In this document: positions 19,110 to 33,991 of the stretch, in pieces
Layout: the number at the start of each line of letters is the position of its first letter
Numbering within the stretch: the first letter of the stretch is position 1
Origin: Ignavibacteriales bacterium
GTDB taxonomy: Bacteria > Bacteroidota > Ignavibacteria > Ignavibacteriales > Melioribacteraceae
Assembly: GCA_016177735.1 (NCBI GenBank)
Contig: JACOUS010000030.1
Span: forward strand, 124,001 to 188,000
DNA: 64,000 nucleotides
Direction: 5' to 3'
Notes under the pieces: generated by a model
Seen by the model: only the letters and a program-made list of their open reading frames with translations
The model's database searches: none
Told to the model about the DNA's origin: nothing
Made by a program: the position numbers and the translations under genes

Positions 19110-20249
19110 ATGTCTTTAAGTGAAAAGTCGTTGTCGCGAGAACAAAATAATTTATTTGAGATAAGCTGTTTTTCAAAAAGTGTTTGTACAGCACTGGAAG
19201 ATTTGGATGATGGAATAGCTATAATAAATCGAGAGTACGAGATTGTCTGGGCTAATAAAAGTTTTGTAAATATTTTTAGCAAAAAGTGCTCAAATCAAAT
19301 CTTGGGCGCTAAATGTTTTGATTTGTTAAACAACAATAAATCCATTTGCAACGACTGTCTAGCGCAAAATACTTTTGAAGGCTGCCATATTGATAAACAT
19401 GTAATAATGAGACAAGCCCGCCTTGGCGGGCAAGTATTGGATGGGAAGAAAATTGTTTTGAAAGAAATGAATTTCCCTTTGATAGATGAAAACGGCACAA
19501 TAACTCATGTACTTATTTATTTAAAAGATTTTACCTATGAAGCTGCGTTGGAAGAACAACTGAGAAGTTCAGACCGCTTAGTTGGAGTTGGTAAACTTGC
19601 AGCCGGCATAGCACACGAAATAAGGAATCCGCTTGGAAATATTACTGCAGCTGCACAATATTTTTTAAAAAAAGCCGAGGCTGATAGTGAGATTAAAAAA
19701 TACTTAAAGATTATTTTGAGAAATTCCGAGAGGATGAACAAGATTATAAAAGAACTACTAAACTTTGCAAAACCACATGAAGTTTCTTTTACAATTGGTT
19801 CGGTTGATAAAGTTATTGATAATGTTTTCAGGCTTGTTAAGGCAAGATTATTAAAACAGCATATTCAGTTTTATAGAAATTTTTCAAAACACCAGCCCAA
19901 AATGTTGCTGGATGAAAAAATTCTGGAAGAGGTGTTTCTAAATTTAATACTGAATGCAATCGAGGCGATGCCTAAAGGCGGAAAACTTGCTGTCACAGTT
20001 CATGCCGGGGAGAATGATAATAAAGTTGTAATTAATATTGCCGATACAGGTGTTGGTATCTCGGAGGATAACTTAAATAATATATTTGAACCTTTCTTTA
20101 CCACAAAAAAAGATGGGACGGGATTCGGACTTTCTTTTGTTCAACATAGTGTGGATATGCATAATGGCAAGGTTGAAGTAAAGAGTAAGCTTGGTTATGG
20201 AACAGAAGTAACGATTATTTTACCATCATATCAGGAGGTCGTTTTATGA
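19110..20249 (+). CDS. NtrB-like PAS sensor histidine kinase
   Basis: This 379-residue soluble kinase has one PAS domain (about 28-145) and then HisKA with Ala-His-Glu-Ile-Arg-Asn-Pro-Leu-Gly near residue 168 and an HATPase with Asn-Ala-Ile-Glu-Ala and Gly-Phe-Gly-Leu-Ser. The PAS domain carries cysteines in Lys-Cys-Phe-Asp and Cys-Asn-Asp-Cys, so a redox or metal signal is possible. No membrane segment is present. It overlaps the following sigma-54 activator gene by four bases (ATGA), and the two form a clear pair. Because they sit just before a gas-vesicle operon with a sigma-54-type promoter, they probably control buoyancy. A short palindrome is embedded in its PAS coding sequence (separate entry). 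Confidence 0.88.
   Translation: MSLSEKSLSREQNNLFEISCFSKSVCTALEDLDDGIAIINREYEIVWANKSFVNIFSKKCSNQILGAKCFDLLNNNKSICNDCLAQNTFEGCHIDKHVIMRQARLGGQVLDGKKIVLKEMNFPLIDENGTITHVLIYLKDFTYEAALEEQLRSSDRLVGVGKLAAGIAHEIRNPLGNITAAAQYFLKKAEADSEIKKYLKIILRNSERMNKIIKELLNFAKPHEVSFTIGSVDKVIDNVFRLVKARLLKQHIQFYRNFSKHQPKMLLDEKILEEVFLNLILNAIEAMPKGGKLAVTVHAGENDNKVVINIADTGVGISEDNLNNIFEPFFTTKKDGTGFGLSFVQHSVDMHNGKVEVKSKLGYGTEVTIILPSYQEVVL
19416..19431. repeat. Palindrome GCCCGCC-TT-GGCGGGC inside the kinase gene
   Basis: A perfect 7-bp inverted repeat with a two-base spacer lies in frame within the PAS-coding part of the kinase and encodes roughly Ala-Arg-Leu-Gly-Gly (about residues 102-108). Its high GC content contrasts with the AT-rich gene. 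A related half-site (TTGCCCGCC) occurs near 51883, which suggests a dispersed repeat that inserted without breaking the frame. Confidence 0.6.
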
Positions 20250-21619
20250 AAGAAAAAATACTTGTAGTTGATGATGATCGGGATATGTGTCAATTGCTCT
20301 CCGATATTTTAACAACGGAAGGATACGAAGTCTTTACTGCAGAATGCGGAAAAATAGTTCTTAAAGAAACAGAAAAAATTCGACCTGAAATAATTTTGCT
20401 GGATATCAGGCTGCCGGATAAAAACGGTCTTGAAGTTTTAAAAGAGATTAAAAAAAGTGATGAAAATATAATTGTAATTATGCTTACTGCTTCAGAGGAA
20501 GTTCATAATGCGGTTAACGCAATGAAGTTAGGAGCGTTTGATTATTTTACTAAACCGTTTAACAATGAAGAAATAATTTTAGATGTGAAAAAAGCTCTTC
20601 AAAATAGACGTCTTAAAATTGAAGTTGAGGAACTAAGGAAGAAATTAGAGAAGAGTGGAAATCATGAATTATTTATAGGGGAAAGTCCGCAAGTAAAACA
20701 AATGTTAAATCAGATAAAAACAATTGCTCACACAAATGTAACCATTAGTATTCAAGGTGAAAGCGGAACCGGGAAAGAATTAGTTGCACGGTTAATACAT
20801 CAAAACAGTGTTCGAAGCGGTGCTCAATTTGTAGCTGTTGACTGTGGCACTCTGCCGGAAAACTTAGTAGAGAGTGAATTATTTGGTTATGAAAAGGGAG
20901 CTTTTACCGGTGCCGCAGCTAAAAAAGAAGGGAAATTTGAAACAGCAAATAAAGGGACAATATTTTTAGATGAGATCACAAATTTACCCCTTTCGCTTCA
21001 ACCAAAACTTTTAAGAATAATTCAGGAGCGGAAGATTCAACGGTTAGGAAGTACAAAAGAAATAAGTGTTGATATAAGAATTGTTACCGCTACTAATAAA
21101 GTTTTATCTGAAGAGGTCAAAAAAGGGAAATTCAGAGAAGATCTTTACCATAGAATCAATGAATTCAATATTATTCTTCCGCCTCTAAGGGAAAGAAAAG
21201 AGGACATACCGCTGTTGGCAAACTTCTTTGTTGAAGAATCTAATCGGGAGTTCAGAAAAAATATTGAAGGTCTTTCGGGTGAAGCAATGAAATCATTATT
21301 AAACTATTCTTTGCCCGGTAATGTGAGAGAGTTAAGAAACATAATTAGAAAAGCGGTGCTCTTATCGGATTCGGATTACATTAAAGAAATAGTTCTAGAT
21401 GGTGGATTTATTTCCGGTGCAGAAAGATTTGATTATTTGTCTGAATTGGGGAAAGGAATTCCACTTCGAGAAATAACTCATAAAGCCATCAAAGAAATAG
21501 AAAAAAATGTTATTAAAAAAGTGCTGACTCAAACAAAAAATAATAAAGTAATGGCTGCTAAAATTCTCAAAATCGACAGAATGACTTTATATTCAAAAAT
21601 AAGATCTCTCGGACTGTAA
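20246..21619 (+). CDS. Sigma-54-dependent response regulator (NtrC family)
   Basis: This 457-residue activator has the standard order: a receiver domain (1-120, phosphoacceptor Asp in Leu-Leu-Asp-Ile-Arg-Leu-Pro), a linker, an AAA+ domain (Walker A Gly-Glu-Ser-Gly-Thr-Gly-Lys-Glu near 171; the sigma-54-contacting Gly-Ala-Phe-Thr-Gly-Ala near 218) and a C-terminal Fis-type helix-turn-helix (about 415-455). It should bind DNA upstream of -24/-12 promoters and drive open-complex formation after phosphorylation by the overlapping kinase. An AGGAGG site within the kinase tail precedes it. The likely target is the gas-vesicle promoter 140 bases downstream. Confidence 0.93.
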   Translation: MKEKILVVDDDRDMCQLLSDILTTEGYEVFTAECGKIVLKETEKIRPEIILLDIRLPDKNGLEVLKEIKKSDENIIVIMLTASEEVHNAVNAMKLGAFDYFTKPFNNEEIILDVKKALQNRRLKIEVEELRKKLEKSGNHELFIGESPQVKQMLNQIKTIAHTNVTISIQGESGTGKELVARLIHQNSVRSGAQFVAVDCGTLPENLVESELFGYEKGAFTGAAAKKEGKFETANKGTIFLDEITNLPLSLQPKLLRIIQERKIQRLGSTKEISVDIRIVTATNKVLSEEVKKGKFREDLYHRINEFNIILPPLRERKEDIPLLANFFVEESNREFRKNIEGLSGEAMKSLLNYSLPGNVRELRNIIRKAVLLSDSDYIKEIVLDGGFISGAERFDYLSELGKGIPLREITHKAIKEIEKNVIKKVLTQTKNNKVMAAKILKIDRMTLYSKIRSLGL

Positions 21620-21625
21620 AATAAT

Positions 21626-21642
21626 TTCTACAAAGTGTAGAA
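21626..21642. promoter_or_regulatory. Inverted repeat, candidate activator-binding site
   Basis: The sequence TTCTACA-AAG-TGTAGAA is a perfect 7-bp inverted repeat centred about 130 bases upstream of the -24 element of the candidate sigma-54 promoter. That is a usual distance for an enhancer bound by an NtrC-type dimer. No T-run follows, so it is unlikely to be a terminator of the upstream gene. Binding by the adjacent regulator is inference. Confidence 0.45.
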
Positions 21643-21761
21643 TCACAGTTACAAATCTCTATAGTTTTTCAACTCACCAAAATATTTCCGGCAACTGCTT
21701 CTCAAATAGAGCAAACACATTACAACCGGTGTTAAACTTTTTACATTAAGTAAAAATCTAC

Positions 21762-21777
21762 TGGCGTATTTATTGTA
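21762..21777 (+). promoter_or_regulatory. Candidate sigma-54 (-24/-12) promoter of the gas-vesicle operon
   Basis: TGGCGTATTTATTGTA matches the consensus TGGCAC-purine-N4-TTGC-A/T in spacing and at TGGC, the purine, TTG and the final A; the -12 C is replaced by T. It lies about 85 bases before the receiver gene that begins the locus and directly after an NtrC-type activator gene. No comparable element was noticed in the other gaps of the locus. Confidence 0.5.
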
Positions 21778-21860
21778 TGATAGCTATGAGGGCAGAATAA
21801 ACACAATAAACTTTTTACTATGAGAAAAGAGTGTGCAGCAACATAATAGAGTAATAAAAT

Positions 21861-22274
21861 ATGAATAAAATATTAATAGTGGATGATGATAAAGACATGA
21901 GTAAAATAATCTCGACGATTCTAAAACAAGAAGGTTATAGAATATTTAAGGCGAGCAGCGGTGAAGAGGCAATAACACAGATTTGTTCTAAGAATTATAA
22001 TCTAATTATACTGGATTATAAACTGCCTAATAAGAACGGGATAGAAGTTCTTGAAGAAATCCGAAATATGGATTTATCAATTAACGTAATAATGATCTCA
22101 GCCTATGGAAATAATTTCATAAAATCGAAAGCAAAGGAATTTGGCGTCCATCAATTTTTGGATAAACCATTCAATCTGAATAAACTACTCAATGCGGTCA
22201 AAAATACGTTATCAAAAAATTCAAGCGAGGCATCCCGCTCCCTCGAAACAAAGCAGCGGTTAATAAAAACATAG
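21861..22274 (+). CDS. Single-domain response regulator (CheY-like)
   Basis: This 137-residue receiver protein has no output domain. It shows the acidic triad Val-Asp-Asp-Asp near residue 7, the phosphoacceptor Asp in Ile-Leu-Asp-Tyr-Lys-Leu-Pro near 53, a Ser near 80 and the Lys of Asp-Lys-Pro-Phe near 102. A basic, serine-rich tail follows. It is the first gene after the candidate sigma-54 promoter and lies nine bases before gvpA, so it is probably co-transcribed with gas-vesicle genes. It might take part in the same phosphorelay as the upstream kinase or link vesicle production to another kinase. Confidence 0.85.
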   Translation: MNKILIVDDDKDMSKIISTILKQEGYRIFKASSGEEAITQICSKNYNLIILDYKLPNKNGIEVLEEIRNMDLSINVIMISAYGNNFIKSKAKEFGVHQFLDKPFNLNKLLNAVKNTLSKNSSEASRSLETKQRLIKT

Positions 22275-22283
22275 GAGGTTACC

Positions 22284-22487
22284 ATGGTAGAGAAAGCTAT
22301 CGGCTCATCCAGCCTTGTTGAAGTTATAGACAGGATACTGGATAAAGGTGTTGTTCTAGACACCTGGGTAAGAGTCTCGTTAGTAGGTATTGAAATACTT
22401 GCTATCGAAGCAAGAGTAGTTATAGCTTCTGTTGAAACTTACTTAAAGTATGCAGAGGCTATCGGTTTAACTGCTACCGCAGCATGA
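22284..22487 (+). CDS. gvpA: Gas vesicle structural protein GvpA
   Basis: This 67-residue protein is the main shell subunit that polymerises into the gas-vesicle ribs. It has the near-invariant GvpA sequence: Val-Ile-Asp-Arg-Ile-Leu-Asp-Lys-Gly, then [10 protein letters not shown], and [12 protein letters not shown]. It is closer to the cyanobacterial/bacterial type than to GvpJ or GvpS. A perfect AGGAGG ribosome site at 22273-22278 gives six bases of spacing, the strongest in the locus, as expected for the most abundant product. It is the only true gvpA copy here. Confidence 0.97.
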
Positions 22488-22596
22488 AATAGTTAAGCGG
22501 AATTCTTGCTGGGTTATCCTTTAATCCATAAAAAGGAGTAGAAGCATAATCCCCCAAGATGTTCCTTTGTTGTATATAGTATTGGAAGGATAGAAT

Positions 22597-23292
22597 ATGA
22601 ATGATGCCGCTAAGAAGGATGATTATTTTTTTGAGAATGAGATTAATTGTATTAAATCAATCTTTGATGTTACTCATCAACTTGTAGAAGATTTGCAAAA
22701 TTCTTTTATAGACTTAAAGCAAGAACGGGAAAAAACCAGCATTGAGCTGAGGGATAATCTTGCTAAGAATAATTCTTTACGCAAGAAAGATTTTGATGAA
22801 ATGGTAAAGGATACGTTATTACTGCAAGAAGAAAGTGAAAAAGAAATGAAAAATTTGGTGAAAGTATATCTTGATGAGCAAAAGGAATTAACGCTTTCTT
22901 TAATTGCGAATCTAGAGAAATTTAAAAATGACTCTGCTAACACCGGGTTGATAGAAAATAAGGAACTACATGAACTTGTTAATCAATTCCTTTCTAAACA
23001 AGAAGAAAAAAAAAGTGCTGTGACCTCAAAGCTGAAAGAGTTCCAAAAAGAACAACAGAACTTTACTTCTAAGTTTAGAAAATTTTTAACCAAGGAAAAT
23101 AATCTCAGGGTTCAAGACTTTAAAATGATGCTCAATGAATTTAGAAAAAATCGTGAAAAGAGATTGGCTTTACGAAAAGAAAGAAAGGAAGATGTTGCAA
23201 GAATGCTTTCCACCTTTAAAAAAGAAAGACAGGAAACTCATCCGCATTTGAGAAATTCTGATATAAATCATAATGAAAAAATTTTTCACTGA
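22597..23292 (+). CDS. Gas-vesicle-locus coiled-coil protein, related to the following GvpC-like protein
   Basis: I recognise no named family. The 231 residues are almost entirely charged alpha helix (Lys/Glu/Arg-rich, no proline core, no membrane segment), so long coiled coils are likely. A motif of the form Asp-hydrophobic-x-x-Met-hydrophobic-x-x-Phe-Arg/Lys-Lys recurs, clearest at residues 174-186 and 199-211, 25 apart, and weaker at 65-77. The same motif sits at 33-residue spacing in the next protein, so the two look related. Position between gvpA and gvpN suggests a shell-surface or assembly role. Start ATG at 22597 has GGAAGG nearby. Confidence 0.6.
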   Translation: MNDAAKKDDYFFENEINCIKSIFDVTHQLVEDLQNSFIDLKQEREKTSIELRDNLAKNNSLRKKDFDEMVKDTLLLQEESEKEMKNLVKVYLDEQKELTLSLIANLEKFKNDSANTGLIENKELHELVNQFLSKQEEKKSAVTSKLKEFQKEQQNFTSKFRKFLTKENNLRVQDFKMMLNEFRKNREKRLALRKERKEDVARMLSTFKKERQETHPHLRNSDINHNEKIFH

Positions 23293-23372
23293 AACGGGGC
23301 GGTAAATTATAATTAATGATATGTCTTTAGGCAAAGAAAATAAATTAGCTTAACATAAATAAGAGGTATAAA

Positions 23373-23993
23373 ATGGGCATAGCGGAAGGAATGAAGACGC
23401 TTAGCGAAAATATTGTTGCTGCCAATGATAGGCGGGCAAGAATAACAAATAACTTAACTGCCGATATCCAGAACATGTTAAATGATCTCTCCACAGTTAG
23501 AAAGAAAATGTCGGATGATCAAAAAAATGCTTTGAACATATTTACGAAGAATTTATTTAACAAGGTTAAGAACCTTCGCGAGAAGTTTCAAAAGGAACGA
23601 AAACATATGGGTGAAGCACAAGCCAAAGGTTTATCTGATTTTGCAAAAAATCTCGATAAGGACGTAAACTCAATGATAAATAGTTTCAGGAAAGAGAGGG
23701 GCGAGAAATCTAATGAATTAAAAAAGAAGCTAACTAAAGAAATAAGCAACCTTAAATTTCATGTTAAGTTACTGAAGAGCGAATCTGAAAATCTTATGCA
23801 AGAGTTTAGAAATGATTTTAAAAAAGCTCATCATACATGGCGCGAGATGTCGGTAAATTTAGTTAAATCCAGAAAAGCCGGCTTAACTTCAACTTCAGGA
23901 ACAAAAGAAAAAGGTTCCCGCATTGAAGAGTTTATTGAAAGGAAAAGAAAAAAAGAAAGAAAGCTGCCGAGTTTTCAAGAAGTTATGGAATAA
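23373..23993 (+). CDS. GvpC-like protein with 33-residue repeats
   Basis: This 206-residue helical, highly charged protein contains tandem repeats of exactly 33 residues. Each begins Asn-Leu, at residues 27, 60, 93 and (weaker) 126, with pattern Asn-Leu-x4-Val/Ile-x-x-Met/Leu-x3-Phe/Leu-x-Lys-Glu-Arg and a second half Gln-x3-Leu-x-x-Phe-x-Lys. Cyanobacterial GvpC, the outer protein that stiffens gas vesicles, is also built of 33-residue helical repeats, so length, repeat size and position after gvpA argue for the same role. Sequence similarity to known GvpC is not obvious. A basic tail (about 180-200) follows the repeats. Confidence 0.6.
   Translation: MGIAEGMKTLSENIVAANDRRARITNNLTADIQNMLNDLSTVRKKMSDDQKNALNIFTKNLFNKVKNLREKFQKERKHMGEAQAKGLSDFAKNLDKDVNSMINSFRKERGEKSNELKKKLTKEISNLKFHVKLLKSESENLMQEFRNDFKKAHHTWREMSVNLVKSRKAGLTSTSGTKEKGSRIEEFIERKRKKERKLPSFQEVME
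23451..23747 (+). repeat. Three tandem 33-codon repeats in the GvpC-like gene
   Basis: The repeats cover residues 27-59, 60-92 and 93-125. They diverge at the DNA level and are visible only in the protein: Asn-Leu at the start of each, a hydrophobic residue at positions 6, 9/10 and 13, and Arg at position 17 of each. A fourth, weaker unit begins at 126. Confidence 0.65.
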
Positions 23994-24028
23994 ACTAAAT
24001 AAGCCTGGTACTTATTTCTAAGGCTTCG

Positions 24029-24043
24029 AGCTGCAGAGCAGCT
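24029..24043. other. Palindrome in the gap before gvpN
   Basis: AGCTGC-AGA-GCAGCT is a perfect 6-bp inverted repeat, followed seven bases later by another AGCTGC that could pair alternatively. It lies 36 bases after the GvpC-like gene in a 230-base gap. No T-run follows, so it may be an RNA hairpin that protects or attenuates the upstream message rather than a full terminator. Nothing else is seen in this gap. Confidence 0.3.
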
Positions 24044-24223
24044 AAATATAGCTGCACTTACTAACTATTAACGTTAGATATAAAAAGTATCAAAAAAACT
24101 GGCAATCGTTTTTTGTTTGTGAATGTACGATGAAAGACAAAGTAATCATTCGGCAGTTTGGCGGATGCTATTACTACCACAAAAAAAACTAACAAATAAT
24201 TTTGAAGAAAGATTGAGCCGGAT

Positions 24224-25150
24224 ATGCTAGACGAGATGACCACTGTACTTGAACCAACACCGATGCCCGATTTTGTTGAAACAAAATATATAAAAGAAAT
24301 TACCGGCAGAGCACTGGGATATATAAAAGCAGGTTTCCCGGTTCATTTTAGAGGAGGTTCCGGTACCGGCAAAACGACGCTTGCTATGCACATAGCAAGT
24401 AAAATAAACAGACCGGTTGTAATGATTCATGGCGATGAAGGATTTACTACTTCCGATTTGGTTGGCGGCGAATATGGTTATAGAATTAGAAAAGTGGTGG
24501 ACCGTTTTATTTCGAGAGTTATGAAAACGGAAGAAGATATGGTCAAATGCTGGGTAGATAATCGTTTAACAATTGCCTGTAAATATGGATTTACTTTGAT
24601 ATATGATGAGTTCACACGTTCCCGACCCGAAACTAATAATATTCTCCTTTCAGTACTGCAAGAAAAAATTATGGACCTTCCCAGCGGCAGAAACGGTGAT
24701 GGTTCGTATCTAAAAGTTGATCCGGCATTTACGGCAATCTTTACTAGCAACCCCGAAGAATATGCCGGCGTGCATAGAAGTCAGGATGCACTTCGGGATA
24801 GGATGATTACAATGGATCTGGACTTTTTTGATTATGAAACCGAAGTTGCAATCACCCAATCTAAGGCGAAGATTTCTAAAAAGAGTGCGGAGATTATTGT
24901 GAATATTGTTAGAGGATTAAGGGAGTCCGGGAAATCCGAATTTGCCCCAACTATACGTGGATGTATAATGATTGCAAAAGCTCTTAAAGTACAAGCATCT
25001 TCGCCGGAAAGTGCAAACGGAGCTTTTGTACAAATATGTCAGGATATATTGGCGTCCGAAACAAGCCGGGTCGGTTCGAAAACAAATCAGAAGAGAGTTA
25101 AAGAAATTGTCAAAGAGTTGGTAGAACAGCACAACAAAAAAATATTATAA
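24224..25150 (+). CDS. gvpN: Gas vesicle protein GvpN, MoxR-like AAA+ ATPase
   Basis: GvpN is an AAA+ ATPase needed for vesicles to grow from small bicones to full size. This 308-residue protein has Walker A Gly-Gly-Ser-Gly-Thr-Gly-Lys-Thr-Thr near 44-52, the GvpN-typical His-Gly-Asp-Glu-Gly-Phe-Thr-Thr-Ser-Asp-Leu-Val-Gly-Gly near 70-83, Walker B Leu-Ile-Tyr-Asp-Glu-Phe-Thr-Arg-Ser-Arg near 125, and a sensor Phe-Thr-Ser-Asn-Pro-Glu-Glu near 175. Length and motifs match the family. A second in-frame ATG at 24236 is an alternative start; neither has a strong ribosome site. It opens the second half of the locus after a 230-base gap. Confidence 0.95.
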   Translation: MLDEMTTVLEPTPMPDFVETKYIKEITGRALGYIKAGFPVHFRGGSGTGKTTLAMHIASKINRPVVMIHGDEGFTTSDLVGGEYGYRIRKVVDRFISRVMKTEEDMVKCWVDNRLTIACKYGFTLIYDEFTRSRPETNNILLSVLQEKIMDLPSGRNGDGSYLKVDPAFTAIFTSNPEEYAGVHRSQDALRDRMITMDLDFFDYETEVAITQSKAKISKKSAEIIVNIVRGLRESGKSEFAPTIRGCIMIAKALKVQASSPESANGAFVQICQDILASETSRVGSKTNQKRVKEIVKELVEQHNKKIL

Positions 25151-25287: not shown

Positions 25288-25368
25288 CATTTGTCCCGGG
25301 ATTGACATCAGCAGCGGAGATAATAAACGAGATGTCAATTACTATTGACAGTAATGGAGGAACTTTTA

Positions 25369-25674
25369 ATGAAAAATATTCTGAATGTAACCGGATTTAG
25401 AGATGTGAAAAATATTCACTCTATTAATGCAAGAAGTATTCCTAAAATTATGAGATCGAGTTACCTGGAATTATACTTGCTTAAAAAAGAAATGGACAGG
25501 CTGGAAAAAGAAATTTTTCTGTTAGACAAAAAAAGAAACAATGCCGGTGCACAACTGGAAATTATCGGCAAACAGGTTAAAAAATTGCATAAAGAAATTA
25601 TCGCGGGACAGAAAAGAAAATCGGTTAAAACTTCTTCTGCCGGACAGATTAGAACAATACCGATCAGATATTGA
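25369..25674 (+). CDS. Small coiled-coil gas-vesicle protein, GvpV-like
   Basis: This is a 101-residue protein counted from the ATG at 25369, chosen because GGAGG lies seven bases upstream; an in-frame ATG at 25345 has no such site. The N-terminal ~30 residues are polar. Then Tyr-Leu-Glu-Leu-Tyr-Leu-Leu-Lys-Lys-Glu leads into a heptad-like helix (about 35-85) and a basic tail. The layout of a short variable N-terminus, a Tyr-Leu-x-Leu-Tyr motif and a coiled coil is like that of small GvpV-type accessory proteins, but I cannot confirm homology by eye. It lies between gvpN and the Hsp20-like gene. Confidence 0.5.
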   Translation: MKNILNVTGFRDVKNIHSINARSIPKIMRSSYLELYLLKKEMDRLEKEIFLLDKKRNNAGAQLEIIGKQVKKLHKEIIAGQKRKSVKTSSAGQIRTIPIRY

Positions 25675-25733: not shown

Positions 25734-26273
25734 ATGAAAAAGAAAAATGATAACAAGAAAAAAGAAGAAGAGAATTTTGATTTTGATTTCGGGATAGGGA
25801 AAATAAGTTTAAGTGGTTTATTTAATGGTGTTGAACAACTTGTTGATCTGGCAGCTAAGTTAAAAGATGAAGGTGAAGAAATAAAAAAGGAAGGTGAAAT
25901 TAATCTTGATCATCTTAAAAAAGGAATGAAGGGTGTCTTTGGTGTTTCAATAAAAACCGGCTTGGGCGGAAAGACGGTTGTTGAGTCTTTTGGAAATATT
26001 AAGAAGACGGCTAAAGGTCCGAAGGTTGAAGAAGAGAGAGAACCGCTTACAGATTTGTTTGATGAGAAAGAGGAAATACGCATCTATGCTGAAATGCCCG
26101 GTGTAAACGAAGATGAAATTAAGCTGGATTTATCGGGCGATATATTGGACCTTTCTGCCCGGAGCCGTGATCGGAAATATCACAAAGAAATTTTGCTTCC
26201 TTCAAAAGTAAAAACAGAAACACTTACTTCGAATTATAAAAACGGAATTTTAGAAGTAAGAATAAAAAAATAA
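25734..26273 (+). CDS. gvpH: Hsp20/GvpH-like small heat-shock protein
   Basis: This 179-residue protein has a long N-terminal region rich in Lys, Glu and Gly (1-95) and a C-terminal alpha-crystallin-type domain (about 96-179): Glu-Glu-Ile-Arg-Ile-Tyr-Ala-Glu-Met-Pro-Gly-Val-Asn-Glu-Asp-Glu-Ile, and a final Asn-Gly-Ile-Leu-Glu-Val-Arg-Ile. GvpH proteins of gas-vesicle clusters have this Hsp20-like form and act as chaperones. The terminal Ile-x-Ile anchoring motif of ordinary Hsp20 is reduced. An AAGGA site precedes the ATG. It ends two bases before the Get3-like ATPase gene. Confidence 0.8.
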   Translation: MKKKNDNKKKEEENFDFDFGIGKISLSGLFNGVEQLVDLAAKLKDEGEEIKKEGEINLDHLKKGMKGVFGVSIKTGLGGKTVVESFGNIKKTAKGPKVEEEREPLTDLFDEKEEIRIYAEMPGVNEDEIKLDLSGDILDLSARSRDRKYHKEILLPSKVKTETLTSNYKNGILEVRIKK

Positions 26274-26275
26274 AG

Positions 26276-27220
26276 ATGGCTTTAATCGGGCTTGAAGATA
26301 TTCCGTTAAAATTAATTTTGTTTGGCGGTAAAGGTGGCGTAGGAAAAACTACATGTGCGGTAAGCACTGCGTTGTCTTTATCAAAGAATTTTAAAACACT
26401 GCTGATTTCGACCGATCCGGCACATTCTCTTTCCGATAGTATAGAGCAGGAAGTAGGCACTCAAATAAAAGAACTGAGAGGAATAAAAAATTTATATGCT
26501 CTTGAAATAAGCGCCGAAAAAGCCCTTTGCGAATTTAAATTGAAATATAAAGATGAAATAAAAAATATTTTGGATTCGTCAACTAAATTAGATGAAGAAG
26601 ACATTGATTTAATACTTGATCTGCCGATACCGGGTATTGATGAAGTTATGGGGTTTAAAACTATTCTTGATTTGATTGAAGAAGCAAAGTTTGAAAAATA
26701 TGTTGTAGATACTGCACCAACCGGTCATGCATTAAGGCTGATAACTCTGCCGGCTTTACTTGATGATTGGATTAAAGTTCTTGCAAGGATGCGATGGAAA
26801 TATAGATTTATGGTTGAACGATTTTCAGGCAAATATAATCCGGATAGCAGTGATGATTTTTTGTTGAACATGAAAAAGACCACAAAAAAGATTGAAAAAC
26901 TTTTGCGGAATAATCTAATGTGCGAATTTATTCCGGTAACCATACCGGAAGATATGGCAATTTTAGAAACAGAAAGATTAATAAATGTTTTATACAACTA
27001 CGGGATCAAAGTAAAGCAGTTGGTTATTAACAATGTTTTTAATTCGCACGGCTGCGAGTTTTGCAGAACCAGAAGTAATGAACAAGAAAAGCATGTTAAA
27101 CTGATAGCGGAAAAATTTCATAATCTTACAACAACTATCGCTCCATTGGAATCAAAGGAAGTTAAAGGGATAGAAAGTTTAGAAAATTTTAAAAAGCGGT
27201 TATTTAGTAATGGAAAGTAA
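26276..27220 (+). CDS. Get3/ArsA-family ATPase of the gas-vesicle locus
   Basis: This is a 314-residue deviant P-loop ATPase. [10 protein letters not shown] occupies residues 17-26, [10 protein letters not shown] (switch I) follows near 46-55, and [10 protein letters not shown] lies near 145. A Cys-Glu-Phe-Cys pair near 261-264 matches the zinc-binding dimer contact of Get3. A single ATPase domain and this motif fit the Get3 (TRC40) targeting factor better than the two-domain arsenite pump ATPase, and no arsB is nearby. Its place among gvp genes suggests it shields or delivers hydrophobic Gvp proteins. It overlaps the CDC48-like gene by 11 bases. Confidence 0.85.
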
Positions 27221-29381
27221 CGACAGGTTAATACTAAAAGTTAAAGAAGCTTTGCCGAAAGATGTTGGCAGAGGTGTTGTTAGAATAGATCCGGACGATA
27301 TTCGGTATTTAGGATTAGAAATAGGTGCTATTGTAGAGATAGAAGGGAAACGAAAAACACCTGGTAAAATAATGCCGTGTTATGCCGATGAAAGAGGCAA
27401 GAGCATCATACAGATGGATGGTATCTTAAGAGAAAACGCTCAGATCGGTTTGGATGAAAAAGTTAATATCCACAAAACAGATTATAAACCGGCTAATAAA
27501 ATTCTGCTCACTTCTTTAACATCATCTTCGCCGCTTCAAAAGAGTAAAGACACACAATATATCTGCTCGCTTATTGAAGGGTTCCCGGTTTCTGCCGGCG
27601 ATAGAATTAGAGCAACATTGTTCGGTGCAAAATTTTATGATTACAAAGTAATCAATACTAATCCGGCTGGTGTTGTAGTGATAAATCCGGCTACCATAAT
27701 AACAATAGAATCGAAAAGTGCTGCCGAGCCGGATCGCATTAAAATTTCTTATGAAGATATCGGCGGGCTTAGCAATCAGATTCAAAGAATAAGAGAGATG
27801 ATAGAGCTGCCTTTGAAATATCCTCAAGTTTTTGAAAGATTAGGTGTTGATGCACCAAAAGGTGTTTTCCTTTACGGACCTCCGGGCACTGGCAAAACTT
27901 TAATTGCCCGTGCTGTTGCAAATGAAACTGAGGCTTACTTTACACATATATCCGGTCCCGAAATAATGGGCAAATTTTATGGAGAAAGTGAAGAACGATT
28001 AAGAAGAGTTTTTGAGGATGCACAAAGGCATGCGCCGGCAATTATTTTTATTGATGAAATTGATGCTATCGCTCCCAAAAGAGAAGATATGGGTGGTGAA
28101 AAGCAAGTTGAAAGACGCGTTGTTGCTCAGCTTTTGTCGCTCTTGGATGGATTGGAATCAAGGGGACAAATTATTGTTATTGGCGCTACTAACATTCCGA
28201 ATACAATTGACCCGGCACTTAGAAGACCCGGAAGATTTGATCGTGAAATTTCTATCCCAATCCCTGATAAAAACGGCAGATTGGAAATTTTGTTGATTCA
28301 CACAAGAGGTATGCCGTTATCCAAAGATGTTAATCTGGAAAAATTGGCTGAGATAACGCACGGCTTTGTAGGTGCAGATTTGCAGTCACTGGCAAGAGAA
28401 GCGGCTATGCGCGCTTTGAGAAATATTTTACCAAAGATCGATTTTGAAATGTCTGATATTCCCTATGAAACTTTAATGACGCTTGAAGTAACGATGGATG
28501 ATTTTTTAGAAGCGATGAAAGATGTTGAACCCTCTGCAATACGCGAAGTATTTGTTGAAGTACCGGATGTGAAATGGGGAGATGTAGGCGGACTTGATTT
28601 CATTAAAGAAGAACTGAAAGAAGCTATCGAGTGGCCCCTAAAATATTCGGATGTTTTTAAAAAATTAGAGACTAATCCATCTAAAGGGATTTTACTTTAC
28701 GGAGCGCCGGGCACCGGGAAAACGTTATTAGCTAAAGCGGCAGCTAATGAAAGCGGAGTCAATTTTATTTCAGTAAAAGGTCCAGCCCTCGTCTCCAAAT
28801 ATATAGGTGAAAGCGAAAGAGCAATCCGTGAAATATTCAAAATTGCAAAACAAGCTGCGCCCACAATTCTATTTTTAGATGAAGTGGACAGCTTAATGCC
28901 GCAGCGCGGTATTGTTTCCAATGGTGCTCATGTATCAGAGAGAATGATAAGTCAGTTTTTAGCTGAGATGGACGGGATTGAAGAGCTAAAAGGGGTCGTT
29001 GTTTTAGCGGCAACCAACAGAGTTGATTTAATTGATCCGGCACTTTTAAGAAAAGGACGATTTGATTTATTACTTGAGCTGCCTAAACCGGATGAAAAAG
29101 CAAGAGAAAAAATATTTAATATACACACGCGCAATAAACCTCTTGCAAATGACGTTGATATGAAAAAAATAATAAAACAAACCGAAGGAAAAGTAGGTTC
29201 CGACATTGCTTTTATTTGCCGCAAAGCTTCTATGCTGGCAATAAGAGAGTACATCGAAAAGCAAAAAGATTCTCATGCATCACAAGAAAGTTCTGAGATA
29301 ACTGAAAGCAGTGATACAGCACAGACGGGATATAGATTCTCTATTTCGAAAAAACATTTTGAGGCGGCTCTTTTATTATGA
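27210..29381 (+). CDS. CDC48/VCP-like double AAA+ ATPase
   Basis: This 723-residue protein has the CDC48 layout: an N-domain of a double-psi barrel type (about 1-185), D1 AAA (Walker A Gly-Pro-Pro-Gly-Thr-Gly-Lys-Thr near 224; Walker B Phe-Ile-Asp-Glu-Ile-Asp) and D2 AAA (Gly-Ala-Pro-Gly-Thr-Gly-Lys-Thr near 497; Phe-Leu-Asp-Glu-Val-Asp). Arg-fingers are visible in Arg-Arg-Pro-Gly-Arg-Phe-Asp and Lys-Gly-Arg-Phe-Asp. Such enzymes unfold or disassemble protein complexes. CDC48 proteins are common in archaea and sporadic in bacteria, including some gas-vesicle clusters. Overlap with the Get3-like gene implies coupled translation. A role in remodelling vesicle proteins is inference. Confidence 0.9.
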
Positions 29382-29528: not shown

Positions 29529-30587
29529 ATGAATGCGAGCGGGCTTTATATTTACGGAATAATTAATTCCGATTCGGGTAAAATTCTTGCCAACTTTAGT
29601 ACTACGGATGGAGATAAAGTTTATTGCATTCCCTACCAAGAAATTTCTGCGGTAGTATGCCGGTCAAAAGTGATAAATTATTCTTACATGCCGAAAGATG
29701 CTTTGGTGCGTCTGCTGTTAAAACATCAGTTGTTAATTGAAGAGATTATGAATCTTGGAAGTCCCATCATACCAATGAAGCTGGGAACTTTTGTATCTGA
29801 CGAAAAAGAAGCAAATAATTTTTTGAGCAAAGGATATGCTCTTTCCAAAGAGATATTAAAAAAAATAAATGATAAAATAGAAATTGATGTTGTTGTTACA
29901 TGGAATGATTTAACATCCGTTCTAAAAGAGATAAGCGAAGACAATGTAATTAAAGATATTAAGCAAAGTATGCTGGCTGAACAGAAAGGAATTACAGTAG
30001 AGAACCAAATAAGAATAGGAACTTTAATTAAAAATGAACTCGATCAAATAAGAGGAATAATATCTTCCAATATTTTTACCTCACTCAAAGATTGCTGCGA
30101 TGATATCAAAACTCATGCACCTATGGATGATAAAATGATCGCAAATTTTGCATCGCTGATTAAAAAAGAAAAACGCAAAGAATTTGAGGAGAAGGTGGAC
30201 AAATTAAATTCTACATTTTCCGGCAAGCTGAATTTTAAGTGTGTGGGACCTTTACCCCCTTATAGTTTTTATACTCTCGAAATGAAAAAACTTCTGCAAA
30301 AAGATTTAGAGTGGGCATTGAATTTACTTGAATTGAAAAATTCAACTATAACTAAGGATGAAATAAAAAAAGCTTATAGACGTTTGTCCTTTTCTTCTCA
30401 CCCGGATAAAAATCCAAAAGCTGGGAATAGTGAAAAAGAATTTGATCAATTGAACAAAGCTTACAAAGTACTTTACGAATTTTGTCATTCACAAGAACAA
30501 ATTGAAAGCGGTAAAAGCAAATTCTGCTATCTAAATAATTTTGAAGACTCTGCTATTGTAGTGAGGGTAAGAAATCAGCATGATTAA
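29529..30587 (+). CDS. GvpF/GvpL protein fused to a DnaJ J domain
   Basis: This 352-residue protein has an N-terminal GvpL/GvpF domain (about 1-255): Gly-Leu-Tyr-Ile-Tyr-Gly-Ile, Ile-Ser-Ala-Val-Val, Pro-Met-Lys-Leu-Gly-Thr, and the closing Phe-Lys-Cys-Val-Gly-Pro-Leu-Pro-Pro-Tyr-Ser-Phe. It is followed by a J domain (about 258-320) with the Hsp70-stimulating His-Pro-Asp at 291-293 and Ala-Tyr-Arg-Arg-Leu-Ser upstream. A short tail ends the protein. GvpF/L proteins bind GvpA and help nucleate vesicles, so the fusion would bring Hsp70 to nascent shell protein. It overlaps the next GvpF/L gene by eight bases. Confidence 0.88.
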   Translation: MNASGLYIYGIINSDSGKILANFSTTDGDKVYCIPYQEISAVVCRSKVINYSYMPKDALVRLLLKHQLLIEEIMNLGSPIIPMKLGTFVSDEKEANNFLSKGYALSKEILKKINDKIEIDVVVTWNDLTSVLKEISEDNVIKDIKQSMLAEQKGITVENQIRIGTLIKNELDQIRGIISSNIFTSLKDCCDDIKTHAPMDDKMIANFASLIKKEKRKEFEEKVDKLNSTFSGKLNFKCVGPLPPYSFYTLEMKKLLQKDLEWALNLLELKNSTITKDEIKKAYRRLSFSSHPDKNPKAGNSEKEFDQLNKAYKVLYEFCHSQEQIESGKSKFCYLNNFEDSAIVVRVRNQHD

Positions 30588-31350
30588 AGAAGGCAAATAT
30601 ATTTACTGCATTATTTGTGCAGAGCATGATAGATATTTTAAAACTGGCGGCGTTGGCAACAGAGGAGATGAAGTTCAGACGATAGGCCACGAGGATTTAA
30701 GTATGGTAGTGAGCAGTCATCCTCTTACTAAAATAAACGTTAACCGGGAAAACATGCTGACTCATGAAAAAATAATTGAAGTGGTAATGAAAGAATATGA
30801 TTCTGTTCTTCCGCTAAGGTTTGGAACCATTGCCTCTAGTGCCGAAGAGATACGCAATTTACTTGATAGAAGATATTCAGAATTTAAAAATATACTATGG
30901 GATGTGAAGCATAAAATAGAACTCGGGGTAAAAGGACTTTGGACGAACATAGATGCAATATTTAATGAGATTGTTGAAGAGAACATAGAAATAAAAAGAG
31001 CAAAAGAGATGATTCAGCAAGAAGAGTGCAAAGAGAATGTCCAATTAAAAATGGAGGTTGGGAAGCTGGTGTATAAAGCTCTTCAGAAGAAAAAAAGAAA
31101 AGAGACACAAAATATTATCGAACAATTACAAGGAGTTTTTGCGGATATAAAGCTTAATAAAACCGTAAGCGACGAAACATTTATGAACGCTGCTTTCCTT
31201 GTTGATAAAGGGAGGGAAAAAGAGTTTGATAATATTATGGATGATCTGGGTGACAAATACCGGAATAAAATTATGTTCAAATATGCCGGTCCTCTGCCGG
31301 CATTTAACTTTACTAATATTGTTATGCATCCCGAAGCATGGGAAAGATAA
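30580..31350 (+). CDS. GvpF/GvpL family gas-vesicle protein (second copy)
   Basis: This 256-residue GvpL/GvpF protein has Gly-Lys-Tyr-Ile-Tyr-Cys-Ile-Ile near the start, Asp-Leu-Ser-Met-Val-Val-Ser near 42, His-Glu-Lys-Ile-Ile-Glu-Val then Leu-Pro-Leu-Arg-Phe-Gly-Thr-Ile near 80, and the end motif Phe-Lys-Tyr-Ala-Gly-Pro-Leu-Pro-Ala-Phe-Asn-Phe. The family has two alpha/beta halves and attaches to the growing vesicle or to GvpA. It is most similar by eye to the following copy at 31396, suggesting a local duplication. It is translated from within the end of the J-domain fusion gene. Confidence 0.92.
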   Translation: MIKEGKYIYCIICAEHDRYFKTGGVGNRGDEVQTIGHEDLSMVVSSHPLTKINVNRENMLTHEKIIEVVMKEYDSVLPLRFGTIASSAEEIRNLLDRRYSEFKNILWDVKHKIELGVKGLWTNIDAIFNEIVEENIEIKRAKEMIQQEECKENVQLKMEVGKLVYKALQKKKRKETQNIIEQLQGVFADIKLNKTVSDETFMNAAFLVDKGREKEFDNIMDDLGDKYRNKIMFKYAGPLPAFNFTNIVMHPEAWER

Positions 31351-31395
31351 ATGAACCCGATGCAGATTTAGATTATAAAAAAAATAAAAAATGAC

Positions 31396-32148
31396 ATGCC
31401 GGTAAAAGAAGGTAAATATATTTATTGCATTATAGCCGCTGATAAATATCAAATATTTGGTGAGTGCGGAATCGGAGGCAGAGGCGATAAATTATATACT
31501 ATTTGTTTTAACGAACTTGCGGCGGTTGTCAGCGATTCGCCGGTAATTAATTATTCGGTATCAAAAGTAAATTTGCTCTCACATACAAAAGCGATTGAAT
31601 TGGTAATGGGAGAATTTACGGTATTACCCGTTCGCTTTAGTACAATTGCCGAAGATGAAAATAAGGTTAAAAAAATTTTGGAAAAAGAATACGATAAATT
31701 CAAAAGCATGATTACAAAACTCGAAGGGAAAAAAGAGCTTGGCTTGAAAGCGGTACTAAACAGCGATGTTATTTATAAAGATATTCTTGAGAAACATAAA
31801 GACATTAATATGTTGAAAAAAAAACTTGAGCGCTCGAAAGCATATAATGAACTTGTTGAAATTGGAGAGATGGTTGAAAATGCATTGGAAGCGGAGAAAG
31901 AGATTTATAAAGAAGAAATTCTTAATACTCTTTCTCCGTTAGCAGAAGAAATAAGCATTAATAAAGTTTTTGAAAAAATGATGGTTCTAAACGCTGCATT
32001 CTTAGTCGAAAAAAATAGAGAAGCAAAATTTGACCAAAATATACATGAACTCGATTCCAAATTCAGTTCCAAAATAAAATTCAAATACGTAGGAACAGTT
32101 CCTCCTTTTAACTTTGTGAACCTAAAAATAGAAACGAGAAATTATTAA
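31396..32148 (+). CDS. GvpF/GvpL family gas-vesicle protein (third copy)
   Basis: This 250-residue paralogue begins Met-Pro-Val-Lys-Glu-Gly-Lys-Tyr-Ile-Tyr-Cys-Ile-Ile, shares Leu-Pro-Val-Arg-Phe-Ser-Thr-Ile near 77, and ends with Phe-Lys-Tyr-Val-Gly-Thr-Val-Pro-Pro-Phe-Asn-Phe. The close match of its N-terminus to that of the gene just upstream points to tandem duplication followed by divergence in the helical middle. No strong ribosome site is seen before the ATG. Its stop overlaps the gvpG start by one base (TAATG). Confidence 0.92.
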   Translation: MPVKEGKYIYCIIAADKYQIFGECGIGGRGDKLYTICFNELAAVVSDSPVINYSVSKVNLLSHTKAIELVMGEFTVLPVRFSTIAEDENKVKKILEKEYDKFKSMITKLEGKKELGLKAVLNSDVIYKDILEKHKDINMLKKKLERSKAYNELVEIGEMVENALEAEKEIYKEEILNTLSPLAEEISINKVFEKMMVLNAAFLVEKNREAKFDQNIHELDSKFSSKIKFKYVGTVPPFNFVNLKIETRNY

Positions 32149-32393
32149 TGTTTTTGATTGACGACATACTGCTCTCTCCGCTGAAAGGTATAATATGGCT
32201 TTCCGAAAAACTGGAAAATTTTGTTGAAAAAGAATTGACCGATCAGGATAAAATTAAAGAAAAACTGATGGCGCTGCAGTTGCAGTTCGAACTTGATGAA
32301 ATAAGTGAAGAAGACTACGATAAACAGGAGTGTGAACTTTTGGTTCGTTTGGACGAAATTCAGAAACAAAAGGAGGAACAAATGTATGTCTGA
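32148..32393 (+). CDS. gvpG: Gas vesicle protein GvpG
   Basis: This 81-residue accessory protein matches GvpG: Phe-Leu-Ile-Asp-Asp-Ile-Leu-Leu-Ser-Pro-Leu-Lys-Gly at the start, a short amphipathic region, then a charged helix with Leu-Gln-Leu-Gln-Phe-Glu-Leu-Asp-Glu-Ile-Ser-Glu-Glu-Asp-Tyr-Asp. GvpG takes part with GvpF/L proteins in the early assembly complex. It starts on the stop codon of the upstream GvpF/L gene and overlaps the gvpO start by eight bases, so translation is likely coupled. Confidence 0.92.
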   Translation: MFLIDDILLSPLKGIIWLSEKLENFVEKELTDQDKIKEKLMALQLQFELDEISEEDYDKQECELLVRLDEIQKQKEEQMYV

Positions 32394-32649
32394 TATCAGA
32401 GAAGTTAATTATACAGTAGGAGAATTTCTAAAAAGTGTTCTGAATGCTAAAGAAGTGAAAATTATTAAGGTAATACAAAAAAGCGGCGGATGGGAAACAG
32501 AAGCTGAAGTGTACGAAGAGAGTTCGTTTATTAAAGCTTTGGGGCTGCCTACCAGAGTAATGGACAGAAATTTGTACACAGTTGTACTGGACCAAAATCT
32601 TGGAATCGAATCTTATGCGAGAAAAGAAAGAGTGGAACAAGAGGAGTGA
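32386..32649 (+). CDS. gvpO: Gas vesicle protein GvpO
   Basis: This 87-residue protein has the GvpO core: Gly-Gly-Trp-Glu-Thr-Glu-Ala-Glu-Val-Tyr-Glu-Glu near 36-47, then Leu-Pro-Thr-Arg-Val-Met-Asp, Tyr-Thr-Val-Val-Leu-Asp and Glu-Ser-Tyr-Ala-Arg near the end. I chose the ATG at 32386 because GGAGG lies 10-14 bases upstream inside gvpG and the family core starts shortly after; an ATG at 32305 in the same frame would add 27 residues unlike the family. GvpO is an accessory protein whose exact role is unsettled. Confidence 0.88.
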   Translation: MSDIREVNYTVGEFLKSVLNAKEVKIIKVIQKSGGWETEAEVYEESSFIKALGLPTRVMDRNLYTVVLDQNLGIESYARKERVEQEE

Positions 32650-32652
32650 CTA

Positions 32653-33465
32653 ATGGACGCGCTGTATCTTTATTGTATTAGGAAAAAAAATATTTTTTTA
32701 CCTTTTCTTGCACAAGGATTGGAAGAAAAAAAAGAAATATTCGCAATACCGTATAAAAAAATTGAAGCTGTTGTAAGCAGGATATCGGTCGAGGATTTTA
32801 GTTCCGATGAAATAAAAATTAAAGCACAAGAAAATTTAAACTGGATAAAGGAAAAGATTTTAATCCACGAGAAGGTAATTGAAGAAGCTATGAAAAAGGA
32901 TGACATAACGCTCAGTGTGATCCCCATGAAATTCGGGACGATCTTTACTGAAGAAAAAAGATTATTAGAGACTTTAGATAAGCATTATCTGCAGTTCAGA
33001 ACTGCGTTGGATAAGCTCGAAGGGAAAGAGGAGTGGAGCGTGAAAATTTATCTTTCCGACGAAAAAAAATTTGAGGAAATAATAAAAACTAACTGCGGAA
33101 CGATAAAAGAGTACCAAAATAAAATTGCCGGTCTGCCTGAAGGTTTGGCATATTTTCATGAATTGGAATTGAAAGAAGTAATTTCAAATGAGATCGAACA
33201 AAGATTAGAAGACATAAAAAAAGAAATATTTTTCGAAATGAAACTTGACACTGAAGAGGCAAAAGAATGCAAGTTGCTTGAAAAAGAAATAACCGGAAGA
33301 GTTGAACCAATGATCTTAAATTCCTCATTTCTTATCAGTGATAAAATGGTAAATCAGTTTATTCAAAAAGCAGAGAGAAAAAATAAAGAACTTAATATAA
33401 AGGGACTTGTACTTGAATTTTCCGGTCCATGGCCCCCTTATTATTTTAGCGAGCAATATGTTTGA
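32653..33465 (+). CDS. GvpF/GvpL family gas-vesicle protein (fourth copy)
   Basis: This 270-residue copy starts Asp-Ala-Leu-Tyr-Leu-Tyr-Cys-Ile-Arg, has Ile-Glu-Ala-Val-Val-Ser near 37, His-Glu-Lys-Val-Ile-Glu-Glu then Ile-Pro-Met-Lys-Phe-Gly-Thr-Ile near 91, and ends Leu-Glu-Phe-Ser-Gly-Pro-Trp-Pro-Pro-Tyr-Tyr-Phe. It is more divergent from the second and third copies and shares Ile-Pro-Met-Lys with the J-domain fusion. It follows gvpO by three bases and overlaps the next gene by eight. Confidence 0.92.
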   Translation: MDALYLYCIRKKNIFLPFLAQGLEEKKEIFAIPYKKIEAVVSRISVEDFSSDEIKIKAQENLNWIKEKILIHEKVIEEAMKKDDITLSVIPMKFGTIFTEEKRLLETLDKHYLQFRTALDKLEGKEEWSVKIYLSDEKKFEEIIKTNCGTIKEYQNKIAGLPEGLAYFHELELKEVISNEIEQRLEDIKKEIFFEMKLDTEEAKECKLLEKEITGRVEPMILNSSFLISDKMVNQFIQKAERKNKELNIKGLVLEFSGPWPPYYFSEQYV

Positions 33466-33991
33466 TAGCGGAAAAAATGTAACATTAGTTGATGCTCTCG
33501 ATAAAGTTATCGAGAAAGGTGCTGTTGTTAACGGCGAGGTAGTGATTAGTATTGCCGATGTTGATTTGATTTTTGTCGGTTTGAGATTAATTCTTACTTC
33601 CATATCAAAAGCAGAAGAAGTAAGCGGAAAAAGTTTTTCACCTTTGACAGAAGTTCCTACGCCCGAAGAGTTGGAATACATAAATAAGCTTCAGATGGAA
33701 ATTAAAAAGTCTGAAAAAAATATTTCTCAAATACTGGACTCGAATGACCCAAGAGAAACAGAAAAAGGTATAGCAAAATTAATTTTAACCTTAGTTGAAC
33801 TTATCAGAAGACTGATGGAAAAAGAAGCATTTAGAAGAGTTAAAAATGCATCGCTTTCTTCAGTAGAAATTCAAAAATTGGGTCTAAGTCTTAAGGCAAT
33901 AGAAAAGAAAATCAAAGAAGTACAACTAATTTTTGGGCTTGAGAATGAAGAATTAAATTTGGATTTAGGTCCACTGGGAAACCTTATGTAA
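33458..33991 (+). CDS. GvpS-GvpK fusion protein
   Basis: This 177-residue protein joins two gas-vesicle families. Residues about 5-55 are a GvpA-like/GvpS segment (Leu-Val-Asp-Ala-Leu-Asp-Lys-Val-Ile-Glu-Lys-Gly, then Val-Val-Ile-Ser-Ile-Ala-Asp-Val-Asp-Leu-Ile). Residues about 85-177 are GvpK (Glu-Lys-Gly-Ile-Ala-Lys-Leu-Ile-Leu-Thr-Leu-Val-Glu-Leu-Ile-Arg, ending Asn-Leu-Asp-Leu-Gly-Pro-Leu-Gly-Asn-Leu). The two are normally separate, adjacent genes. I chose the ATG at 33458, which overlaps the upstream stop; an ATG at 33407 lies deeper inside the previous gene. Confidence 0.82.
   Translation: MFDSGKNVTLVDALDKVIEKGAVVNGEVVISIADVDLIFVGLRLILTSISKAEEVSGKSFSPLTEVPTPEELEYINKLQMEIKKSEKNISQILDSNDPRETEKGIAKLILTLVELIRRLMEKEAFRRVKNASLSSVEIQKLGLSLKAIEKKIKEVQLIFGLENEELNLDLGPLGNLM

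Follow-up and report, generated by a model that had tools for sequence, protein, structure and literature searches.

A divergent GvpC-type protein with 33-residue repeats, probably homologous to cyanobacterial GvpC, in an Ignavibacteriales gas-vesicle gene cluster

Gas-vesicle gene cluster and its gene order

The window analysed here, a stretch of 64,000 nucleotides from an Ignavibacteriales bacterium (GenBank assembly GCA_016177735.1, contig JACOUS010000030.1, positions 124,001 to 188,000), carries a gas-vesicle gene cluster (Table 1). Genes for a histidine kinase, a sigma-54 activator and a receiver protein precede gvpA, which is followed by two genes for long-helix proteins, here termed C1 and C2, and then by gvpN, X109, Hsp20, ArsA and CDC48; the order continues with a GvpF/L-DnaJ fusion, three GvpF/L genes and a GvpJ-GvpK fusion. 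Hsp20, ArsA/GET3 and CDC48, along with the GvpF/L-DnaJ fusion, give the cluster an ample set of chaperones for assembling vesicles. The ORF at 32305 was at first guessed to be GvpO; it has no Pfam match and the assignment was dropped. A scan for sigma-54 promoters yielded matches at the level of chance (6 against 6.9 expected), among them a one-mismatch site at 21762 and a sole exact match at 32269.

According to the ORF list and its translation, C2 starts with ATG and encodes 206 amino acids. It sits between gvpA and gvpN, the gene position of cyanobacterial gvpC. The putative target is well preserved: the 14-residue alpha2 stretch of the window's GvpA keeps both glutamates modelled as GvpC contacts, and differs from that of Tolypothrix by a single change, V to I.

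Table 1. Features of the gas-vesicle cluster and of C2 (positions in the window)
Feature	Coordinates	Strand	Remarks
Histidine kinase, NtrC-type sigma-54 activator, single-domain response regulator	19110..22274	+	directly before gvpA
gvpA, shell ribs	22284..22487	+	alpha2 stretch by alignment
C1, paralogous long-helix protein, 231 aa	22597..23292	+	no Pfam/NCBIfam family over cut-off; profile match to C2
C2, probable divergent GvpC-type protein, 206 aa	23373..23993	+	repeat, motif register, profile homology
C2 repeat 1, residues 25-57	23445..23543	+	6/9 GvpC residues: L28, L36, R43, Q50, L54, F57
C2 repeat 2, residues 58-90	23544..23642	+	5/9: L61, R76, Q83, L87, F90
C2 repeat 3, residues 91-123	23643..23741	+	3/9: L94, R109, L120
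C2 unit 4, degenerate, residues 124-156	23742..23840	+	Asn-Leu at 126; motif scan gives no support
gvpN, AAA ATPase	24224..25150	+	TIGR02640, 334.7 bits
X109, small helical-looking ORF	25345..25674	+	no family; control
Hsp20/GvpH-like	25734..26273	+	
ArsA/GET3 ATPase	26276..27220	+	
CDC48-type AAA ATPase	27210..29381	+	
GvpF/L fused to DnaJ domain	29529..30587	+	
Three more GvpF/L genes (30580, 31396, 32653) and ORF at 32305	30580..33465	+	
GvpA/J-type domain fused to GvpK	33407..33991	+	single ORF

A GvpA scan of named genomes gave 495 confirmed relatives, the best 80 of which were kept as loci; 71 of these are non-cyanobacterial, and 50 of the 71 reach gvpN within 6.5 kb. Among these best 80, all 50 such loci have a non-C1 ORF of at least 150 aa between gvpA and gvpN, and 45 of the 50 show the order gvpA-C1-ORF-gvpN, and in 33 of these 45 some ORF of the locus has C2 as its best match (BLAST, 1e-3). 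The 45 C1-bearing loci include Bacteroidota, Chlorobiota, Elusimicrobiota, Omnitrophota, Planctomycetota and Syntrophaceae; the other five (L057, L073, L079, L081 and L085) lack C1, and the nine cyanobacterial loci among the best 80 have gvpN and no C1. Over 87 loci, the window's included, 62 ORFs best match C1 and 48 best match C2. From set A1 the rows L061 (masked residues), L014 and L028:8437 (replaced by L028:7701) were dropped, as was L068:5944 from set A3.

Within the window's phylum, gvpN was found in 29 of 395 sampled genomes, and in 28 of these the gene is immediately preceded by an ORF of 190 aa or more; none of the other genomes of the window's family among the 395 has gvpN. In the GvpN tree the window's sequence falls in a clade of 11 rows (support 98/84) with members from Saganbacteria, Desantisbacteria, Omnitrophota, Lentisphaerota, Elusimicrobiota, Nitrospinota and Planctomycetota and no further row from its own phylum; some same-phylum sequences (f39, f51) are the next neighbours, with weak support. 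Horizontal acquisition of the gvp cluster (19110-25150) is plausible.

Repeats, contact residues and profile comparison of C2

The initial annotation had described a GvpC-like protein whose Asn-Leu pairs recur every 33 residues. These pairs do lie exactly 33 apart, at residues 27/28, 60/61, 93/94 and 126/127, and the period also emerges from self-comparison, as had been anticipated: when lags 5-79 were compared with 1000 shuffles preserving the hydrophobic/polar pattern, lag 33 was the strongest of the 75 lags (z = 5.0, 31 identical pairs, 0/1000 shuffles as high), followed by lags 73 (z 3.2), 66 (z 3.0) and 48 (z 2.6). Lags 7 and 11, expected to rise in any amphipathic helix, reached a z of only 1.6-1.7. 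Tandem 33-residue repeats, as in cyanobacterial GvpC, are present in C2; residues 25-90 show them clearly, the third unit less so, and the fourth (124-156) only in degenerate form.

A peak at 33 in homologues had been set beforehand as one of the tests on which the reading could fail. In the close set A4, which comprises ten close C2 proteins (the window's and nine others), lag 33 has the highest pooled mean z of the lags tested (4.8). Of the 55 C2-position proteins from outside cyanobacteria, among them the window's, just eight have it as their sole top lag, because the long Bacteroidota members have other helix-compatible lags; the top lags of the C2-position proteins of about 400 aa from Bacteroidota are mixed, for example 65, 58, 7, 18 and 47. 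The mean z at lag 33 is 5.9 for cyanobacterial gvpC-position proteins (n=9), 2.8 for C2-position proteins (n=55) and 1.3 for C1 (n=59), against control values of 0.7 for GvpN (n=64), 0.55 for CDC48 (15 of 40), 0.25 for X109 (n=39), -0.5 for GvpF (n=91) and -1.0 for HSP20 (n=43).

Other spacings were also noted. Among the 205 internal gap runs counted pairwise in the A4 alignment, which are not independent, a length of exactly 7 residues is the commonest (73 runs), as if insertions preserve the helix face. Two C2-position proteins, L062:7253-8497 and L064:1977-3221, have very strong 51-residue repeats (z 14-15), and a third, L049:1572-2744, repeats strongly every 56 residues (z 10.8), a spacing outside both the 33-residue period and the helix-compatible lags seen in the other relatives.

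For the contact residues we relied on the consulted portions of Huber et al. 2023 (PMC9994262), which give an Anabaena repeat consensus with nine residues conserved at >90% in 91 sequences, and a docking model that sets one GvpC repeat on four GvpA with the conserved residues placed against GvpA. C2 keeps six, five and three of the nine residues in the units starting at 25, 58 and 91, with positions 11 and 15 changed. The sum over this register is 15, compared with 7.9 +/- 1.1 in the null (0/2000 shuffles); the third repeat counts by register alone, because two positions outside the register, 130 and 160, score 3/9 as well. The register sum has p < 0.05 in eight of the nine other close C2 proteins, L010 being not significant. 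A 33-mer with at least 6/9 residues occurs in 6 of 53 C2 proteins, the remaining 47 never reaching 6/9. The 335 further gvp proteins compared (58 C1, 39 X109, 91 GvpF, 43 HSP20, 64 GvpN and 40 CDC48) contain no such 33-mer. Two C2-position proteins from Chloroflexi (L059 and L073) have 8/9 residues in one 33-mer.

The consensus of 21 C2 repeats of the close set is VKELTADVQKMLKGFQKDRKKMSEEQAKDLADF and that of 57 cyanobacterial GvpC repeats is HKELEQTTQEFLSETAKARIAQAQKQAQELLAF; the comparison of the two is biased to agreement, since the C2 repeats had been picked at 4/9 residues or more. At position 11, Phe is replaced mostly by Met, Thr or Leu, and at position 15, Thr mostly by Phe. An HMM of the single repeat, built from the 57 cyanobacterial 33-mers, proved too narrow and was set aside: it gave the window's C2 only 4.1 bits (E 2.2), and gave one C1 protein 15.6 bits, with shuffles scoring up to 8.5.

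Neither PF01304 nor TIGR02641 matches the window's C2 at E up to 1, and PF01304 has no match anywhere in the genome of the window protein. The curated models are narrow, with PF01304 matching two and TIGR02641 five of the nine cyanobacterial gvpC-position proteins at the E-limits used. When C2 and C1 were scanned with Pfam and NCBIfam, only coiled-coil-type and scattered matches came up; the absence of GvpC models is sure for the window protein alone, because the families seen were 25 of the 257 matching for the 53 C2 members and 25 of 28 in a further C2/C1 scan.

The profile-profile search proposed for C2 did return a match to cyanobacterial GvpC far above column-shuffled nulls. The close set against 18 cyanobacterial GvpC sequences, gathered with PF01304 (L088, L112 and L096 were dropped from the profile), gave a probability of 92.5, an E-value of 4.8e-7 and a score of 50.5, a score reached by none of 120 shuffles that kept hydrophobic and polar columns (12.5 +/- 2.2, maximum 19.3). 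All 53 C2 proteins gave a probability of 95.0 and a score of 59.5 against the same profile, and the X109 control a score of 13.2. The alignment of C2 with cyanobacterial GvpC spans 164 match columns almost without gaps, at 16% identity.

A C-terminal domain, lacking in the window's C2, is present in 35 of the 53 C2 proteins. A model of it matches five of ten cyanobacterial proteins (the nine in gvpC position and L112) with E-values, for about 120 sequences, from 3.9e-9 to 3.9e-4; the cyanobacterial L077/L088 and L112, which have the domain, exceed the PF01304 cut-off. The domain also occurs in one of 58 C1 proteins (L015, 5e-5). It resembles winged helices, and TrmB matches three of the nine cyanobacterial proteins; since the winged helix is a common fold, the argument for homology from this domain is weakened. 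An AlphaFold2 model of C2 from ten sequences predicts helices at 3-76 and 81-171, with low confidence (mean pLDDT 58.5, pTM 0.28); a structure incompatible with binding GvpA ribs would have spoken against the annotation, and the predicted fold is all-helical and thus compatible, if weakly supported.

The paralogue C1 and a second period

C1 and C2 match strongly at the profile level (99.1%, score 125; null maximum 35.1), which marks them as paralogues. A direct relationship of C1 to cyanobacterial GvpC was considered and found unsupported (score 20.6, with 1/120 shuffles as high). The window's C1 has no signal at lag 33 (z 0.25); its strong lags are 25, 14, 58 and 26, and the commonest top lags in the C1 family are 58 and 51 residues. 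Members of this family follow gvpA in many phyla and carry a conserved 'AKN.SLRKKDFD.MM' block.

All four gvp groups have a helical period of 3.63-3.645 over lags 12-110, compared with 3.505 for SMC coils. A second period appears at 8.15 residues in long C2 proteins (16 clustered; r 0.83, 0/150 helix-phase surrogates) and at 8.40 in C1 (33 clustered; r 0.67, 1/150), where surrogates favour about 9.6-9.9. It did not exceed the surrogates in the close C2 (107/150) or other C2 (98/150) groups; an 8.2-residue period is not established for the window's own subgroup, because the close C2 group fails this comparison. The cyanobacterial consensus repeat has no 8-residue sub-period (lag 8, z 1.1).

When a clear helical period was required, the best second period fell within 8.0-8.5 in 28 of 45 C2 and 28 of 55 C1 sequences, as against 0 of 14 apolipoprotein-like segments, whose helical period is the same, 0 of 20 SMC and two of five PspA (4/28 unfiltered); sequences are related within each family and these counts are not independent. 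With another window length and no filter, the counts were 21/32 for C2, 25/42 for C1, 1/53 for SMC, 2/12 for RmuC and 1/8 for RecN. Of the two usable segments in a first control set, L181 (position 15158) was at 8.25; L340, being a C2 gene, was excluded from the apolipoprotein-like controls, and the other 29 loci gave the 14 usable segments. Taking 1.5 A per residue, a period of 8.2-8.4 residues corresponds to 12.3-12.6 A. In the consulted portions of PMC9994262, GvpA is spaced by 12.1 A when measured at the inner hairpins, and by about 12.7 A at the radius of GvpC on a vesicle of 87 nm; the modulation fits this published side-by-side spacing of 12.1-12.7 A, with some controls mixed.

These observations suggest a broader reading, which we hold only tentatively and consider rather doubtful: that many phyla have a two-protein GvpC system, C1 and C2 having arisen by duplication, that is lattice-matched to GvpA by a general unit rule. 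The second period of C1 and long C2 would then be the side-by-side GvpA spacing, and the 33-residue cyanobacterial repeat, covering four GvpA, would be one solution among several. Units of 25, 33, 40, 58 or 65 residues would register with whole GvpA subunits, heptad insertions would preserve the helix face, and C1, though unmatched to the cyanobacterial GvpC profile, might bind ribs too.

Identity of C2 and relation to known systems

C2 shares with cyanobacterial GvpC (PF01304/TIGR02641; Anabaena flos-aquae) the 33-residue repeats with L4, L12, R19, Q26, L30 and F33, the gene position between gvpA and gvpN and a long helix, predicted in C2; some cyanobacterial GvpC also have the C-terminal domain common to C2 relatives. 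It differs in being unreported by the curated models, in the altered positions 11 and 15, in having two good repeats and a weaker third, and in the paralogue C1 in front. Nearly all gas-vesicle clusters encode GvpC, as stated in the passages seen of Dutka et al. (PMC10185304). That C2 lies outside cyanobacteria, as the initial annotation stressed, is true, but it is no surprise, GvpC being already known from Serratia (PMC4982088) and haloarchaea (PMC9501494) in the excerpts available of both papers; the novelty of C2 is accordingly moderate. In the former, Serratia GvpC strengthens vesicles (mutant collapse pressure 0.1435 vs 0.4334 MPa), and C2 can be likened by description to this non-cyanobacterial, proteobacterial protein. 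BLAST finds a C2 relative (1.3e-11) in a Desulfobacterales locus, L085; L079 is assigned by position only. The latter describes haloarchaea as having their own GvpC with repeats of 32-39 aa. GvpC of Halobacterium pNRC200 resembles C2 in gene position and helical repeats; unlike C2, it has a z of -0.9 at lag 33 and of 4.4 at lag 32. It was rejected as a C2 homologue (hhalign probability 1.45 with the close set, 2.46 with all C2) and has no match to the cyanobacterial GvpC profile. An Octadecabacter plasmid ORF was likewise rejected as a relative, profile comparison giving no match. The equivalent of C2 on a Methylocella plasmid, a 'hypothetical protein' in RefSeq, matches the all-C2 profile (96.9%) as well as that of the close set (88.9%), and does not match the cyanobacterial GvpC profile (probability 1.4).

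Divergent homology is the best-supported explanation of C2, over chance or a generic coiled coil, and we regard C2 as very probably a diverged homologue of cyanobacterial GvpC, a long helix lying along the GvpA rib and stiffening the shell. The helix would extend over about residues 3-171, possibly broken at 77-80, and would run on the outside of the rib, one 33-residue repeat (about 49.5 A) covering four GvpA monomers; its conserved Leu/Arg/Gln/Leu/Phe face would pack on GvpA helix alpha2 and thereby confer resistance to buckling. We infer that C2 is made, binds the vesicle and stiffens it.

The initial annotation had left open whether C2 is a distant homologue or the product of convergence, and the first of these is now favoured, on account of the residue register, the profile score, the C-terminal domain of relatives and the position before gvpN. 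Convergence would mean that an unrelated helical protein was forced to the 33-residue period by the spacing of GvpA ribs; helical low-complexity sequence does drift readily, many C2 relatives have other spacings, and the 16% identity in the profile alignment is low. We nevertheless consider it improbable: that alignment is nearly gapless over its 164 columns, identical GvpC residues stand in register, and the two Chloroflexi proteins with 8/9 residues are possible intermediates. Convergence would also not predict that C2 relatives and PF01304-positive proteins share a C-terminal domain, which speaks against it.

The same GvpC signature bears on the idea that C2 is an assembly factor or a soluble coiled-coil chaperone off the shell, with C1 as the stiffener. 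C1 is matched more widely (62 against 48 best-match ORFs in 87 loci), and the location of C2 on vesicles is itself deduced; yet the signature sits in C2 and is absent from C1, and C2 occupies the place before gvpN, where the five C1-less loci among the 50 non-cyanobacterial ones (best 80) still have an ORF. Such a role for C2 seems quite improbable. A generic coiled coil of SMC or apolipoprotein type, in which 33 would be three hendecads, is disfavoured as extremely improbable. C2 does have weak, sub-cut-off Pfam matches to Apolipoprotein and BAR, and shares with the apolipoprotein-like bacterial helices (PF01442) an amphipathic helix of period 3.63; lag 33 ranks sixth among their top lags. 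However, lags 22, 18 and 29 come first there, the window protein scores 17.8 bits against a PF01442 cut-off of 90, and these helices lack the 8.0-8.5-residue modulation (0/14). In addition, class-preserving shuffles leave lag 11 of C2 at z 1.7, and the helical period of 3.63 in the gvp families stands against 3.505 in SMC. In three sampled genomes of the Chlorobium-containing family (G044, G048 and G157), C2 genes next to gvpN match the apolipoprotein model weakly, and the part consulted of PMC10158934 lists a Prosthecochloris gvp cluster with gvpC and an 'apolipoprotein'; given these matches, C2 may be what that paper calls by this name.

With C2 read as a diverged GvpC, what is new here is the residue-level link, the C1/C2 paralogue pair and the modulation of about 8.2-8.4 residues in two of the four groups; the titles and abstract openings of the open papers surveyed describe neither such a pair nor an 8-residue period. 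GvpC governs vesicle strength and offers a handle for the engineering of acoustic reporters, according to the portions seen of PMC10344784. Recognition of the C2 family points to candidate stiffeners of the shell, so far unannotated, in many phyla, and supplies a paralogue pair that can be tested. If the modulation of about 8.2 residues is confirmed, the design of the GvpC repeat would become a readable rule, in residues per GvpA subunit, which could account for the differences in repeat length among lineages.
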